This document shows positions 40,910-47,333 of a stretch of DNA of 64,000 nt, piece after piece. This DNA is from Fluviicola sp. (GTDB lineage Bacteria; Bacteroidota; Bacteroidia; Flavobacteriales_D; Crocinitomicaceae): NCBI RefSeq assembly GCF_039596395.1, contig NZ_JBCNJT010000002.1:992001-1056000 (forward strand), read 5' to 3'. The position numbers were made by a program, and so were the translations under genes. The notes under the pieces are model-generated. The model saw only the letters and a program-made list of their open reading frames with translations, had not been told where the DNA came from and searched no databases. Each line of letters opens with the position of its first letter. Position 1 is the stretch's first letter.

Positions 40910-41051
40910 GGAGTGGAATATGGTTAATAGTCATCGAAGATATAAGAAAATGACTATACTCAAAATTCTAGAAAACATTTTTGAGTGTAATTTTTCGAAG
41001 ACAATTTGAGTAAAAACATAAACCCCACCATCCAATTTGAAAAGCGGTTTC

Positions 41052-41067
41052 GCTAGTGTTAACTAGC
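41052..41067. repeat. Short perfect palindrome downstream of 41074 gene
   Basis: GCTAGT / ACTAGC stem with GTTA loop, 7 nt beyond the stop codon of the minus-strand gene at 41074. No T-run, so only a weak terminator candidate. Confidence 0.3.
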
Positions 41068-41073
41068 AGTTTA

Positions 41074-41397
41074 TTATTGACTTAAGCTTTCTAGGTAATT
41101 ATATATTTTGGAAGCAAGTAGATCAATTCTTCGATTTGATTGATTTGCTTTCGTCTTTAGTATCGGCTTTGACATTTCCACATATTTATCAAAGATTTCA
41201 CTTGCATCATTGCGATTTTCTAGGTCCATCATTTCAAAGATGATCGGTCCTATATCCAGTTGATAATCATCCGCACGAATCTGCATCTTTTGAAGTGAGT
41301 AGATCATTTTCCAGTTAATCAAATCCTGCTTTATTAGATTGATTATGATAGTCTTATTACAGATGAAAGTGTTTTGTGAAGGAGTTGGAAGTGCCAT
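41074..41397 (-). CDS. Hypothetical protein
   Basis: A 107-residue soluble, mostly helical protein (DLENRNDASEIFDKYVEMSK, RRIDLLASKIYNYLESL), no family known. Start at 41397 is uncertain: an alternative ATG encodes MIYSLQKMQ thirty codons later. Its first nine or so codons overlap, on the opposite strand, the 5' stem of the structured element, so the true start may be internal or the two may be functionally linked. Confidence 0.45.
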   Translation of the reverse strand: MALPTPSQNTFICNKTIIINLIKQDLINWKMIYSLQKMQIRADDYQLDIGPIIFEMMDLENRNDASEIFDKYVEMSKPILKTKANQSNRRIDLLASKIYNYLESLSQ

Positions 41398-41655
41398 TAG
41401 AAGGAGGGTTAATTTCTGTTCAGCACCAAAACAGAACGTTGATAAACAAGCAGGCGTGGTGCTCAGCTTACTGTCTCACAGGCATCGCCAAACGCCTTGT
41501 ACACAATAAACCAAAGACAACCACGCCCGTTTCTTGGGAGTGGTTAGTCTATCAGTTCTTGTGTACTAAATTTGGCGATTTCGTGAGACAAGACCTAATA
41601 GCTAACGCTACTCTTAATATTTAGAAGTACCTTCTTTGTTCTTTCACAAAGGTAC
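41371..41655 (+). ncRNA. Structured element with nested stems and pseudoknot (retron-like shape, unassigned)
   Basis: Outer stem 41373-41384 with 41639-41650 (12 bp, two G·U pairs that favour the plus strand); inner stem 41399-41404 with 41630-41635; hairpin 41414-41420 with 41430-41436 whose loop AGCACCA pairs with TGGTGCT at 41457-41463 (pseudoknot); then a 119-nt long hairpin 41472-41590 built from 8, 9, 8 and 10 bp segments (TGTCTCAC, ATCGCCAAA, GTACACAA and AGAC-AACCAC with their exact complements). A further inverted repeat GTACCTT/AAGGTAC (41628-41655) competes with the outer stem. Long terminal hairpin framed by an outer stem resembles retron msr-msd, but no reverse transcriptase is present. 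Structured RNA or recombination (ssDNA) element. Confidence 0.6.
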
Positions 41656-41716
41656 GATTTGACATATTTTAATTGTTTTTACATGAAATAAAAAAGTTTT
41701 AAACAATGCTAAGATA

Positions 41717-41833
41717 CATAAAATGAATTTTAATACAAATTTTATGAATTAAATAATCCATAAAATGTATTTTTTGAGATTCACTAGTCTTTCTGATCTC
41801 TTTGTAAAACGTATGCTTTCATTCATTTTATGG
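41717..41833. promoter_or_regulatory. Candidate operator cluster for the XRE regulator
   Basis: CATAAAATG at 41717-41725, ATTTTATG around 41740-41747, CCATAAAATG at 41758-41767 and its exact inverse CATTTTATGG at 41824-41833: four copies of one half-site in alternating orientation, ending 28 nt before the regulator's ATG. Suggests autoregulation by the encoded helix-turn-helix protein. Confidence 0.5.
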
Positions 41834-41861
41834 ATATTTTAGAGTGAAAAAACAAATTACG

Positions 41862-42098
41862 ATGACTAAAGACAAAGAAGAGAAGATTCGAATGAACAGG
41901 ATAAAAGTTGTTTTGGCTGAATTGAATATTTCTCAAAAGGCTTTAGCTGAAATGGTAAATAAGACTCCCAATACCATTACGCGAATTTGTAACAATGAAA
42001 GTCAACCGACAGTCAAATTTCTTAGAGATATTGCAATAGCACTTGAAGTAAATGTTCAGGAATTATTGGTGCCAACACCTGCAAAAACTAGAGATTAG
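41862..42098 (+). CDS. XRE-family helix-turn-helix regulator
   Basis: A 78-residue transcriptional regulator: LNISQKALAEMVNKTPNTIT is the helix-turn-helix core, followed by RICNNESQPTVKFLRDIAIA and LEVNVQELL, a compact Cro/C1 (HTH_3) domain. Start at the ATG 41862 (MTKDKEEKI); a GTG at 41844 would add six residues. Repeated half-sites upstream support autoregulation. It is convergent with the NADAR gene (16 nt apart) and probably controls part of the island. Confidence 0.88.
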   Translation: MTKDKEEKIRMNRIKVVLAELNISQKALAEMVNKTPNTITRICNNESQPTVKFLRDIAIALEVNVQELLVPTPAKTRD

Positions 42099-42113
42099 AA
42101 AAAACACATTAGT

Positions 42114-42737
42114 TTATGCTAATTCCATAGCATATCTGTTTTCAAAATCCATGGATACATAGGACGGATCATAAACAGTTGTAATAATATGATCAAATAG
42201 TAAAAAACCAGGAATATTTGGAGGTGATATTGAATTTATTTTTGAACCATCTACCACATACTTTTCCCTAATGTCCATTAATAACCTTCCGAGTGCGTTT
42301 ACACCTTTCAGGGTTTTATCATCCGATGGTGCTGCTCCCCAAAATTGATCTTTAGTGGAATATTCAACAATCGGCTTGTTGCTTGTGCTGAGTAAAAGAG
42401 AGCCGAACGATTCCCAGTTTTGCACCAGCTTTACCATCACACACCAACGCATAATTTCAAACTTCACGTTTTCCCAATCTTGTCGTGTGTACTGTGTGTA
42501 TTCCCTACTGATCCGCTTCGCATCCATCGGGCTTGATTGGCTGATTATCTTCTTTTGTAATTCAGGAAACAAAGGAAATCTGCAAGCCTGATACAATGCC
42601 TCCACATTGGGAATAATAATTTCATTTACAAAAAGAGTATAATCAGGTGCCATGTTTGACAACCCACCAAATTTTCCTTTTGTATTACTAAATGTAATGA
42701 CTTCGGATGCAATATATGTTCTTTGTGATACCTTCAT
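42114..42737 (-). CDS. NADAR family protein (YbiA-like)
   Basis: A 207-residue NADAR-fold protein. Seen: FGGLSNMAPDYTL near residue 23-35, the IIPNVEALYQA element with Glu46, MDAKRISR, W88/M96 in DWENVKFEIM, VEYSTKDQFWG (Glu125 to Gly134) and GVNALGRLLMDIRE. In characterised members this fold acts on ADP-ribose linkages: YbiA/RibX on riboflavin intermediates and others reverse ADP-ribosylation of guanine next to DarT toxins. Here it follows a phosphoribosyltransferase-like gene by 24 nt, in the same transcript, which points to a nucleotide/ADP-ribose conflict module; no DarT or TIR is seen. Confidence 0.82.
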   Translation of the reverse strand: MKVSQRTYIASEVITFSNTKGKFGGLSNMAPDYTLFVNEIIIPNVEALYQACRFPLFPELQKKIISQSSPMDAKRISREYTQYTRQDWENVKFEIMRWCVMVKLVQNWESFGSLLLSTSNKPIVEYSTKDQFWGAAPSDDKTLKGVNALGRLLMDIREKYVVDGSKINSISPPNIPGFLLFDHIITTVYDPSYVSMDFENRYAMELA

Positions 42738-42761
42738 GCTACACTAAGATAATGAATTTTA

Positions 42762-43805
42762 TTAATTTCTTCGTCTCGCTGGAAACAATGGATGCCAGTC
42801 ATGCCCCGGAACCTCCCACCACAACGCTAACGGTGCATTATTCGGGATATTGCGCCAGGTAAAAAAGTGAGTACCCAAACCGTAAGTCTTGTAATTAGGA
42901 TTGATGAACCCCAATGGTCTGATATTGGGCGAAACTGGACCTTGAATCATGTCAATAATCAACAGCCCCTTTTGAAGCAATATTCCTTCATATTTGACTC
43001 TGTTTTCCGGAGAAGAAAAAAAGCTTTCTTTAGCTGGAATATTATCCGGTCGGTAAGCATAATCTTCATATTTTTGTGCGTTCAAGTTAGCCAGATAAGT
43101 TTTAGCATTGTTAGGCTGATCTTTGACCGGAATAGCAATATTCAATTCTTCCCCATGGAATTTGATATGATTCTGAATTTCGAAATTCCTGTACCATTTG
43201 ATTTTTCTTTCCAGTGCTTGAGAGAATGTTTTAGATATCCTGATTTTTTGAAAAGAATGTCCCCATGTATGTAAGCAAAACAGGTGAATCGACAGCCGGA
43301 ATTCATCCTTTGAAATTCTCAAATGATTCTCATTACGTCCATCATTCTTTAATTTGAGCCAGTCGATAACTTGTCCGCCTATTGTACCTCCTGAAGCCAG
43401 CACATCATCAAAATAAACAAAATTGGTTTTTGGGAAAGTCACATAATCTTTGAATGAATGCTGGTATTCAGCAACGAGTACTTCGTCCACCAACTCAAGG
43501 ATTACATTCTGGCTCTTTCCAATTGGCTGCATATCGAGAAATTCAGTTTCTGATAAAAACTCAGTGATTGATCCATACTTGGAATCACTAAGCATTGTTT
43601 CAATATGGCTTTTGATCCAGTTTCTCGCAATTTCAAGAGGTATATATGTTTGTGGCAATATGTGATTGATTTCAGTTAACATGAACTCAGCATCCTTTCC
43701 AAATTGTTCTGCCCATTTCAGAATACTTTCCACTGTTATTTGAATACCATCACTATTTCTGTAATCCTTAATTTTTTCTAAAACACTGTTTGCCAAATCT
43801 TTCAT
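42762..43805 (-). CDS. Phosphoribosyltransferase-like effector protein (PRTase-CE type)
   Basis: A 347-residue protein. The first 125 residues are helical; then VYFDDVLASGGTIGGQVID carries the PRPP-binding fingerprint (Asp133, Asp134 and the SGGT loop 138-141), followed by a beta/alpha core (RLSIHLFCLHTW). The C-terminal third is specific to this class (LGTHFFTWRNIPNNAPLALW, then PLFPARRRN), including an invariant-looking GTHxFFTWRNIPNN segment. It matches the PRTase-like domain described in bacterial conflict systems (computational work by Burroughs and Aravind). First gene of a two-gene operon with NADAR. Reaction not known. Confidence 0.68.
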   Translation of the reverse strand: MKDLANSVLEKIKDYRNSDGIQITVESILKWAEQFGKDAEFMLTEINHILPQTYIPLEIARNWIKSHIETMLSDSKYGSITEFLSETEFLDMQPIGKSQNVILELVDEVLVAEYQHSFKDYVTFPKTNFVYFDDVLASGGTIGGQVIDWLKLKNDGRNENHLRISKDEFRLSIHLFCLHTWGHSFQKIRISKTFSQALERKIKWYRNFEIQNHIKFHGEELNIAIPVKDQPNNAKTYLANLNAQKYEDYAYRPDNIPAKESFFSSPENRVKYEGILLQKGLLIIDMIQGPVSPNIRPLGFINPNYKTYGLGTHFFTWRNIPNNAPLALWWEVPGHDWHPLFPARRRN

Positions 43806-44227: not shown

Positions 44228-45223
44228 ATGCCCGACTACTATACTCCCGATCCAATTTGGTTAACAGATTTGAAAATCGAAAATCAGGATGATTACGTAA
44301 AAAAATATGTAATCAAAGGAAACTTCCATTCCGGAGTTCACGAAGATGTAATCAATAGTTTCAAAACAGTTGAATACCTAATGGCTCATGCCTATTATCA
44401 TTGGCAGATGTATGACCAGGTACTTGCAAAACTGCTTTCCATTTTTGAAATGGCTGTAAAATTAAGATCGAAAGAACTCGACAATCCATTGCAATATCAA
44501 GATCGTAGTGATGAAACTAAGGATAAAGAATTATGGCGATTGATAAAAGAATTAAAAAACTTTGGATATCCGGGTTTTGTGATTCGTGATCTGCATTGGT
44601 TGAGAAAATTAAGAAATCAGGAATCACATCCTGATGGGCATCATTTTGCTGGAGCAATTAAAAAAGTTGCAATCATGCCTGGAATCAATATAATCAACCG
44701 GCTTTTTCTTGACCCTAATAAATTGACTCTCCAGATAAATAACGATACCCAAATGCGGAGAGATAAAAACATCTTCTCAAATAATGTGTTCATTCACTCT
44801 TATGATGGAAAAAAAATCTTAGTCCATGGCCTTGAATTTCTCCAAAATATTGAATTGGAATCCACCAATTGTGAGTACTGGAAAGCAAATCCTATACTCA
44901 CAGATACTTATGAATCCTTCAGTAGAGGAAGTTTTGGATCCCCATTTAGATTTTTCTTAACAAATGTCCGTATAGAAAACGGAAACTTGCTTGCAACAGA
45001 CTTCCATTCCAATGAATTCGTCACATTATATAAAGCCACGGATGAAAGATCTCTTCAGGCATACCAGAAACATGTAGAAGAATTAGAGAGATTGGAGCCT
45101 ATACAAAAATCCGCAGCAGAGTCATCTTATAGACATCATTTAAATAGTCACCTGGAAGAGTTTGTATATATCAATTGTTGGACAAGCGAACAAGAAATTA
45201 TCCCGGATTCGATTAATGAATAA
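44228..45223 (+). CDS. HEPN-motif protein, first gene of the defence operon
   Basis: A 331-residue soluble protein. The helical N-terminal half includes VEYLMAHAYYHWQMYDQVLA, LLSIFEMAVKLRSKEL and LRKLRNQESHPDGHHFAG, where Arg129-Asn-Gln-Glu-Ser-His134 fits the Rx4-6H motif of HEPN ribonucleases and toxins. The C-terminal half (about 190-331) is beta-rich and unrecognised. HEPN proteins commonly cut RNA or bind nucleotide. Its stop is followed 16 nt later by the GajA-like gene, whose upstream alternative ATG even overlaps, so it is coupled. It might be an added effector to a Gabija-like system, an inference from context. Confidence 0.6.
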   Translation: MPDYYTPDPIWLTDLKIENQDDYVKKYVIKGNFHSGVHEDVINSFKTVEYLMAHAYYHWQMYDQVLAKLLSIFEMAVKLRSKELDNPLQYQDRSDETKDKELWRLIKELKNFGYPGFVIRDLHWLRKLRNQESHPDGHHFAGAIKKVAIMPGINIINRLFLDPNKLTLQINNDTQMRRDKNIFSNNVFIHSYDGKKILVHGLEFLQNIELESTNCEYWKANPILTDTYESFSRGSFGSPFRFFLTNVRIENGNLLATDFHSNEFVTLYKATDERSLQAYQKHVEELERLEPIQKSAAESSYRHHLNSHLEEFVYINCWTSEQEIIPDSINE

Positions 45224-45239
45224 CCACAAAAAAGAACAA

Positions 45240-47333
45240 ATGAAAATATTCAAAATAGAGGTAGACAATTTCAGACTTCTTAAAGCCTTTTCAATGGATT
45301 TGGAACAAGGACTTTCCTTAATCATTGGCAAAAACAATACAGGGAAAACGTCTATACTTTCCGTAATGGAAAAGTTCTTAGGATCATCAGATAAAAACAA
45401 ATTTTCGTTTGACGATTTTAGCATAGAGTTTAAAAAACATCTGAAAAAGATAATTACTGGTGCTAAACCAATTTCAGAGAACAATTATGCACCAAGTGGA
45501 ATTAAATTGAAGGTGTACATTGAATATAATGAGCATGATGATCTTTCCAATATTAGTCGTGTAATGATGGATCTGGATCCAGCTAATAATATCGTTGTGC
45601 TAGGATTTGAATATACTCTGCATTTCAATGATTATGTCAAGATTCGAAAAGACTATTCCGAATTTAGTAAGGAAGAAGTGAAAAAAAGGGCTAAGCAAAA
45701 GGCATATACACCAAAAAAATTATATGATTTTTTACAAAGACATCAGTTAAGCTATTTCAAACTTCAAAAGAAGTCTTTTGAATACAATCGTCGTTCAAAA
45801 CGAATTAATGAATCGAATTATATTGATTTGATTGACGGGAAAATAAAGATTGACGATATTATTAATTTCAAATTTATTAGTGCCAAGAGAGATGTCACAA
45901 ATAAGGACATTGACAAAACATTGTCCAGACAAACTTCAAGAATTTACAAACGCACTGAAGTAAATGAAGAGCAAAGAAAAGAAGTAGATATATTTCAGGA
46001 CACATTGACGGTAACAGATGATAGTCTTACAACGATCTATTCGACGTTATTCAACGATGTGGTGGAAAAGGTCAGATCATTTGGAGGGATAAAACTCAAC
46101 GAGTCAGAAATTAAAATTGTTTCTACTTTGCAACACAGAGAATTACTGGAAGGAAATACTACTGTAGTTTACAGTCATGATGAAGATCATAAACTTCCTG
46201 AACATTATAACGGTTTAGGCTATATGAATCTGATCAGTATGATTTTCGAAATCGAAATACTGCTTCAGGATTTCAAAAGAAAACAAGGAGAAAAGTTGGC
46301 AGATATTAATCTGTTGTTTATTGAGGAACCTGAAGCTCATACCCATCCTCAGATGCAATATGTTTTTATCAAAAATATTAAAAAACTTCTTGGAGAAGGG
46401 ATCAATCGAATTGATAAGGAGCACCGTGATCTGCAATATATTATAAGTACCCATTCAGCATGTATAGTTGCTGATAGCGATTTTGATGATATTAAATACC
46501 TGAAGAAGGAAGATAACAATAATGTGTTAGCCAAAAACTTAAAGGATTTAAAAGATGGTTATGCTAAAGACCCGAAGCAATATCAGTTTCTGAAGCAATA
46601 TCTCACAATAAGCAGAGCTGAGATTTTCTTTGCAGATAAAGCAATATTGATTGAAGGAGATACAGAAAGAATTCTTATTCCTACAATGATGAAGCAGATT
46701 GATCTTGAGGAGGAAAAACGTTTTTCTGATCTTGGAGAAAAAGATCCGTTGCTACCACTTCTTTCACAGAATATTTCCATCATTGAAGTAGGAGCCTATT
46801 CACAGATTTTTGAAAGATTCATTGATTTTATAGGAATTAAGTCAATAATCGTCACCGACTTGGATGCAATAGACAACAGTGGTGAAAAATGCGAAGTGTC
46901 TGCAGGTGTGGGATACTCTAATGGAGCCATCAGCTTCTTCTTCAATGATGCAAACTTGAATGATTTGAAAGGTTATAATTTATCGCAAAAATTGTTTAGT
47001 AAGGTTAAGGATAAATGGAAAAAAGATGCGAAAGGAAAATTGTGTGTCGTTTATCAGGTTGCAGAGCAAGGGTACAATGCAAGAAGTTTTGAAGATGCAT
47101 TTATACATATCAATCATGATTTTGTAAAGAATAAAAAAGATGATTTTCGAGGACTAAAGAACCGAGAATATTTTGATGATCCAACTAAAAAATCATATTT
47201 CTTAGCTGATAATTGTATTAAAAAGAAAACACACTTCGCATTAGATATAGTTTATCACAGTAACAGTAAATTAAGTAATTGGAAAACTCCGCAATACATT
47301 AAAGAAGGTTTATTATGGCTGAAGCAAGATTAG
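45240..47333 (+). CDS. gajA: GajA-like OLD family ATP-dependent endonuclease
   Basis: A 697-residue protein with AAA/ABC ATPase and TOPRIM domains, the class 2 OLD/GajA layout; GajA nicks DNA and is inhibited by NTPs in Gabija immunity. Walker A GKNNTGKTS (residues 30-38), an insertion-rich middle, the GLGYMNLISMIFEIE signature-like segment, Walker B FIEEPEAHTHPQ, and the H-loop STHSACIVADSDF. TOPRIM: AILIEGDTER (Glu about 472) and IIVTDLDAID (Asp540, Asp542). ATG 45240 is preferred; 45216 adds eight residues. About 100 residues longer than the classic GajA. Overlaps the next gene by 19 nt. Confidence 0.82.
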   Translation: MKIFKIEVDNFRLLKAFSMDLEQGLSLIIGKNNTGKTSILSVMEKFLGSSDKNKFSFDDFSIEFKKHLKKIITGAKPISENNYAPSGIKLKVYIEYNEHDDLSNISRVMMDLDPANNIVVLGFEYTLHFNDYVKIRKDYSEFSKEEVKKRAKQKAYTPKKLYDFLQRHQLSYFKLQKKSFEYNRRSKRINESNYIDLIDGKIKIDDIINFKFISAKRDVTNKDIDKTLSRQTSRIYKRTEVNEEQRKEVDIFQDTLTVTDDSLTTIYSTLFNDVVEKVRSFGGIKLNESEIKIVSTLQHRELLEGNTTVVYSHDEDHKLPEHYNGLGYMNLISMIFEIEILLQDFKRKQGEKLADINLLFIEEPEAHTHPQMQYVFIKNIKKLLGEGINRIDKEHRDLQYIISTHSACIVADSDFDDIKYLKKEDNNNVLAKNLKDLKDGYAKDPKQYQFLKQYLTISRAEIFFADKAILIEGDTERILIPTMMKQIDLEEEKRFSDLGEKDPLLPLLSQNISIIEVGAYSQIFERFIDFIGIKSIIVTDLDAIDNSGEKCEVSAGVGYSNGAISFFFNDANLNDLKGYNLSQKLFSKVKDKWKKDAKGKLCVVYQVAEQGYNARSFEDAFIHINHDFVKNKKDDFRGLKNREYFDDPTKKSYFLADNCIKKKTHFALDIVYHSNSKLSNWKTPQYIKEGLLWLKQD

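Follow-up and report, generated by a model that had tools for sequence, protein, structure and literature searches.

A predicted pseudoknotted 5' leader RNA in Fluviicola and its apparently undescribed family in Bacteroidota

We believe that the structured element reported here, found in 64,000 nucleotides of Fluviicola sp. DNA (the whole stretch analysed, called the window), is probably the 5' leader, of about 190 nt, of a minus-strand mRNA, with the gene for a 107-aa protein behind it. Judged from sequence comparison, it is a member of a widespread and apparently undescribed family of knotted leader RNAs in many Bacteroidota. The reading we favour is that of a new Bacteroidota leader-RNA family in which signal-driven switching would set the next gene. 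The comparison of copies supports the predicted structure, the strand, the promoter box, the position of the start codon and the long-range pairings.

Copies of the element and their neighbouring genes

A covariance model (R1) built from six sequences matched 42 of 240 genomes of the family, 32 of 299 of the order (26 already counted in the family and 6 new outside it) and 39 of 392 of the phylum; its E-values are rough, and the weakest matches may be chance palindromes. Within the genus, DNA matches were found in 5 of 14 genomes, four of the seven listed places being full or near-full length, and the window's own genome holds a second copy, of 85 percent identity, about 0.42 Mb away. One genome, G011, carries the element in 6 distinct places (8 rows, two of which are opposite-strand readings); a weak match there is a distant homologue of the same architecture, and a pattern search added another copy. 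The pattern scan of named genomes gave at least 119 stretches, and 75 of the 80 listed have a model match. Among the matches listed, 67 of these 75 are Bacteroidota by title (including Prevotella, Bacteroides, Alistipes, Dysgonomonas, Chryseobacterium, Flavobacterium and Tenacibaculum), and the other 8 titles are Lentisphaerae, Kiritimatiellia, Ignavibacteria, Neomarinimicrobiota or unnamed bacteria. The 5 listed stretches in which the model found no match are titled Chromobacterium, Rhizobiales, Saccharibacteria, Thalassospira and Rhodospirillales. Viral contigs have a model match in 25 of 29 stretches; plasmid and phage records searched with the 285-nt region gave no match. From the 82 matches of the named-genome scan 14 were dropped (9 partial, 5 opposite-strand) and 68 used afterwards; one partial match of the 25 was dropped from the viral set, and L286, L290, L291 and L299 were excluded from the downstream-gene survey of the 29 phylum loci L272-L300, which leaves 25.

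The Rfam check proposed by the sequence-only reading gave no identity for the element: at the gathering threshold, nothing lies over an element copy in the whole window or the 49 loci scanned, and window positions 41300-41900 have no match up to E 5. Flavo-1 RNA (RF01705), which PMC9723704 describes as a structured motif that is widely distributed among Flavobacteriaceae and occurs in 5' regions, differs in its 76-position model and was found once, about 390 nt off an element copy (L057) and not on it. Fremin and Bhatt 2021 (PMC8040213) list two palindromic candidates from Bacteroidetes, HMP2_4205 (132 bp) and HMP2_1032 (106 bp), which they place near TPR and TonB genes and present as predicted terminators. 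These descriptions differ from that of the element; palindromic form and origin are shared with it, and the two candidates might overlap the family. No description of the element was found in the one open-access literature library searched.

A gene start lies within 160 nt of the element at 125 of 157 loci. The proteins encoded there form 86 similarity clusters, the largest of 7, and the ncRNA antitoxin offered by the sequence-only reading is left unsupported by this diversity. The 125 proteins found were reduced to 120 without near-identical starts and then to 111, which together with the window protein make the 112 scanned against Pfam. No family occurs in more than 6 of them, among the first 25 of 53 families; the leading ones are the T9SS tail (6), DNA methylase (5), HSDR_N (5), laminin-G-like (5), BspA repeats (4) and LuxR (4). 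Downstream genes without a common function are unusual for a ligand-sensing leader and count against our model. In the phylum sample, no gene start lies within 160 nt at 14 of 25 loci; at 9 of these 14, a SusC-like ORF (by sequence reading) starts about 220-715 nt past the element.

Some loci resemble one another in their surroundings. The downstream genes of L113, L114, L115, L119 and L120 encode secreted proteins with similar signal peptides, several of them laminin-G-like; their leaders are alike and the mature protein parts differ. L116, L117 and L118 are similar modules with the same order: an integrase-like gene, a protein of about 500 aa and the element, followed by an HTH-like protein and more genes. 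Integrase-like proteins (by sequence reading) were seen in 9 of 40 loci at no fixed position, and we take their genes as accessory-island neighbours.

The 107-aa protein has no Pfam, NCBIfam, PADLOC or PHROG match and a confident helical fold model (mean pLDDT 88.5); among solved structures it has no relative, either by sequence (best E 0.3) or by fold (none at E <=0.001). Several of its distant relatives are divergent from XRE-like genes (by reading), with the element absent. One of the earlier suggestions for the window element was a new regulatory RNA beside the XRE gene: a regulatory RNA is supported as a prediction, while its strand is the minus one and the gene it would lead is that of the 107-aa protein, not XRE. 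An obligate link to either gene as a general rule was rejected, since other copies have other neighbours. Divergent HTH genes nonetheless recur in some loci; in the phylum sample, a divergent small HTH-like gene starts 113-174 nt from the element at 12 loci (by reading; one confirmed).

In the window, a repeated inverted motif around CATAAAATGAAT / ATTCATTTTATG lies in 41711-41841, between the leader promoter and the XRE gene, and is a plausible XRE operator. Adjoining the XRE gene, 42114-43805(-) encodes NADAR and PRTase-CE proteins which match, above cut-off, the NCBIfam anti-phage pair DS32_2 / DS32_1. At 44228-47333(+), a GajA-like AAA ATPase (PADLOC E 7.8e-286) follows a 331-aa protein without a clear family; these genes are a defence island beside the element.

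Strand, promoter box and start codon

On the window-minus strand, the box TAnnTTTG, which we take to be the Bacteroidota -7 box, occurs within 90 nt 5' of the element in 107 of 150 copies, against 8.5 expected from shuffles and 13 of 145 on the other side; it is retained in the window (TACCTTTG) and in the three nearest copies (L002, L003, L004). Of the 99 copies with sufficient flanking sequence on the minus side, 85 have the ATG of an open reading frame of at least 60 aa at -30 to +99 nt from the element; the plus side has one in 9 of 104, and random points in 354 of 1080, these counts including related copies, unthinned. Considering that the box stands 5' of the element and the ATG of an open frame within 100 nt 3' of it, we read the element as a predicted leader on the minus strand. 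It lies between the promoter box and the start codon of the next gene, the exceptions being the 14 phylum-sample loci mentioned above.

With two invariant column pairs set aside, which the GGY/RCC stem described below explains, the wobble pairs point to the minus strand; when these columns are included, the plus-fitted alignments lean the opposite way. In the plus-fitted alignment A5 (the first 75 of 82 rows), 189 A-C cells, which are G-U on the minus strand, stand against 83 G-T cells without the two column pairs and 231 with them; in A4 (42 of 47 rows) the figures are 123, 67 and 144. The minus-fitted alignments gave 402 G-U versus 64 A-C (A7) and 143 versus 23 (A8). A comparison with mirrored covariance models showed no separation of the two strands (p 0.33, n=74; p 0.12, n=36).

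The earlier plus-strand reading is contradicted by the start-codon, promoter and wobble-pair evidence. A plus-strand RNA was favoured at first from the two column pairs, which read GG/TT; the stem accounts for them, and the promoter and ATG outweigh what they suggested.

Two further motifs were observed upstream of the element, for example at several Prevotella-type loci, L126, L137 and L153 among them. GCCTATG is present no more than 70 nt away in 13 of 152 copies, against an expectation of 0.1 and none on the opposite side, and is perhaps another promoter type. GACAT was found in 51 of 152, often directly 5' of the element, against an expectation of 10.4 and 5 on the opposite side.

Fold and long-range pairings

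The region 41371-41655 folds strongly beyond chance, as the sequence-only reading had claimed: z is -6.07 on the plus and -6.54 on the minus strand, with 0 of 200 shuffles as good on either, and the predicted minus leader reaches -6.90. The long hairpin (about 41471-41592) also proved to be conserved, with compensatory changes across copies. In 82 aligned matches (all rows, partial and opposite-strand ones included), the covariation score is 0.459, against 0.115 in shuffled alignments (0 of 500 as high) and 0.034-0.057 in slid ones; the count of further pair types was not raised over the shuffle control (168 of 500). Seven pairs are invariant in this alignment, for the most part as a consequence of the scan pattern, in which ATCGCCA and its partner were fixed. 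Where the basal helix does vary, each of the four Watson-Crick types occurs, mismatches are few and there is almost no G-U. The conserved fold with compensatory changes that marks a structured cis-regulatory leader is present; homologues lacking compensatory pairs, or no copies elsewhere, would have spoken against the element, and the opposite of both was found.

Table 1. Predicted features of the leader and its flanking genes in the window
Feature	Position	Strand	Basis or remark
-7 box TACCTTTG (TAnnTTTG), predicted leader promoter	41647-41654	-	Also in L002, L003, L004; family statistics
Predicted 5' leader RNA, 243 nt	41398-41640	-	From about 7 nt past the -7 box to the base preceding ATG; start inferred
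P1a, AGCGT, 5' strand of outer stem	41605-41609	-	Covariation, nearest-copy comparison
P2a, 5' strand of the long hairpin's basal helix	41582-41592	-	Covariation, nearest-copy comparison
P3a, AAATCGCCAAATTT, includes conserved ATCGCCAA	41568-41581	-	Alignments, nearest-copy comparison
P4 and apical hairpin; GGGCGTGGT on 3' arm	41499-41566	-	Covariation, own-versus-swapped pairing
Local stem GGC...GCC enclosing P3b (TTTGGCGAT), predicted internal pseudoknot	41481-41496	-	Alignment
P2b, 3' strand of basal helix	41471-41480	-	Covariation, nearest-copy comparison
PKa, GAGCACC, partner PKb	41458-41464	-	Own-versus-swapped flank pairing
3' switch segment CCACGCC, pairing with either P1a or the apical GGCGTGG arm	41453-41459	-	Covariation, own-versus-swapped pairing
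PKb, GGTGCTG, ends 23 nt 5' of ATG	41421-41427	-	Own-versus-swapped flank pairing
Gene for 107-aa protein, family unassigned, helical model	41074-41397	-	Directly behind leader
XRE (HTH_3) regulator, divergent from leader	41844-42098	+	Domain match

The hairpin with an outward-pairing loop, proposed earlier as a pseudoknot, stands in kind: a GGY...RCC local stem encloses the strand pairing with ATCGCCAA, and this stem and P3 make up the internal pseudoknot. In A5, the variable pair of the stem is T-A in 59 rows, C-G in 15 and C-A in 1 (n=75), the scan pattern behind this alignment having fixed only the purine; in A4, the motif fits 37 of 42 rows, with T-A in 24, C-G in 5 and 8 non-Watson-Crick in that register. 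The 12-bp outer stem of the earlier description did not hold in the copies: its duplex energy is -21.4 in the window against -10.1, -10.8 and -12.9 (other registers) in the three nearest copies, and its arms overlap the beginning of the 107-aa coding sequence and the promoter's -7 box. The outer stem of the family is AGCGT with CCACGC (helix 1), paired in 85.8 percent of cells.

CCACGC also fits the apical arm GGCGTGG, and the fit is better within a copy than between copies (mean 7.05 versus 6.16 swapped, sd 0.083, n=110), with a score of at least 6 in 98 of 110 own pairs versus 66.4 swapped. PKa paired with its own pre-start flank gave -10.28 versus -8.50 swapped (sd 0.28, n=105), and the own flank ranks in the best 5 percent at only 16 percent of loci. 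Stems between PKa and the flank score at least 7 in 20 of 112 copies, compared with 2.4 swapped (maximum 6), and at least 6 in 34 of 112, compared with 11.1; half of the score->=6 stems with a called start (16 of 32) end 17-25 nt 5' of the ATG. Of the 112 anchored copies (45 of 157 could not be anchored), 92 have no stem of score 7 or more. Some members of the family, the window's group among them, show the predicted second pseudoknot clearly; in many copies it is weak or absent. Covariation is seen for two predicted long-range pairings, of which one involves the flank preceding the start codon; with the rival partners of the 3' segment, this is a switch-like anatomy.

We infer that the RNA is made, switches and regulates. 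It would start just past the TAnnTTTG box, near 41650, and would fold into the outer stem P1, the long hairpin P2-P3-P4 and the internal pseudoknot, in which GGY...RCC encloses P3b; some members of the family, the window copy among them, would form a second pseudoknot with a segment shortly 5' of the start codon. CCACGC would pair either with AGCGT of the 5' end, in a stem that is followed by a U-run in most copies, or with the apical arm GGCGTGG, each pairing excluding the other. A signal, which may be a ligand or a protein, would choose between the two states and so set the translation of the next gene; in copies with a long U-run, the choice would perhaps also set transcription. Besides the diversity of the downstream genes, several observations speak against this model: the weak or missing second pseudoknot of many copies, the phylum-sample loci with no near gene start, the mirrored models, the count of further pair types, and the short U-run of the window copy, on whose minus strand no terminator was called. 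Riboswitches and protein-binding pseudoknot leaders (e.g., the preQ1 classes, PMC11625349) are alike in the 5' leader place, the conserved fold, a pseudoknot near the start codon and rival pairings; the element differs from them in having no common function of the downstream genes and no Rfam match over its copies.

Alternative readings and significance

The element could instead be a separate small RNA with its own promoter, which ends at the U-run behind P1 and acts in trans, the next gene being expressed by read-through or independently. In agreement with it, 104 of 152 copies have a T-run of at least five at the minus 3' end, against 32 of 151 at the opposite end, and 14 phylum-sample loci are without an ORF start within 160 nt. 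We nevertheless consider it unlikely: the ATG is found within 100 nt behind the element in 85 of 99 other copies, in some members of the family the flank near this ATG forms pairs with the element, and the U-run is short and weak in the window's own copy. No intrinsic terminator was called on the minus strand of window positions 41000-42150.

Even less probable in our opinion is a mobile non-autonomous unit of about 180-190 bp which spreads a promoter-proximal RNA among genes, with regulation as a by-product. Many copy pairs at different genes are similar over about 140-190 nt, ending near the element borders, including pairs within one genome (L084 versus five others), and the extent of about 280 nt assigned to the element in the sequence-only reading exceeds this shared unit; closely related loci have longer flanks in common. 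The copies L084 and L086 of G011 are alike within the element only (83.5 percent over 176 nt, no in-register match being reported beyond), and the 6 distinct places in that genome also suit mobility. However, other G011 copies have 450-680 nt in common, flanks included, as plain duplications would, while the helix covariation and the ATG spacing point to selection on RNA function. At L007 and L026, the copy is broken directly after AAACAAGCAGGCGT, and the sequence there seems to recur at L012; the break is perhaps the end of an insertion sequence.

That the element works at the DNA level, as a single-stranded DNA hairpin, a protein-binding palindrome upstream of genes, or an attC-like or other recombination site, we find very improbable. 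The nearly G-U-free, Watson-Crick basal helix and the model matches to some copies on both strands are consistent with it; the position between the -7 box and the start codon, the bias of wobble pairs elsewhere to the minus strand and the internal pseudoknot argue against it. Integron attC sites stand 3' of cassette genes, in arrays and without a promoter of their own. The attC-like site put forward earlier was rejected by position: the copies are mostly single (arrays were judged from copy positions) and stand 5' of genes, with their own -7 box ahead. A retron msr-msd with a trans-acting reverse transcriptase, the first likeness noted for this element, is hardly credible at all, as the resemblance (a long terminal hairpin and outer pairing) is one of outline, the element has no dedicated reverse transcriptase and stands 5' of diverse genes, the only RVT_1 match of its own genome is on another contig (C1, the window being on C2), and RVT_1 matches, present in 17 of 30 element-bearing genomes, were not detected in the other 13, seven of which are single-contig assemblies.

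Returning to the leader RNA that we prefer, its anatomy names specific strands to break and restore. A pseudoknotted leader that occurs across the phylum and is missing from Rfam would constitute a new class of orphan riboregulator. As a tentative and rather doubtful extension, this may be a new double-pseudoknot switch class, a portable control unit of about 190 nt by which horizontally acquired genes across the phylum would be placed under one common signal; the genes so controlled, if this is true, would be those of restriction enzymes, surface proteins, receptors and regulators. Because the element precedes diverse accessory genes, including those of restriction enzymes and cell-surface proteins, the signal could control some of the genes that gut and environmental Bacteroidota exchange.
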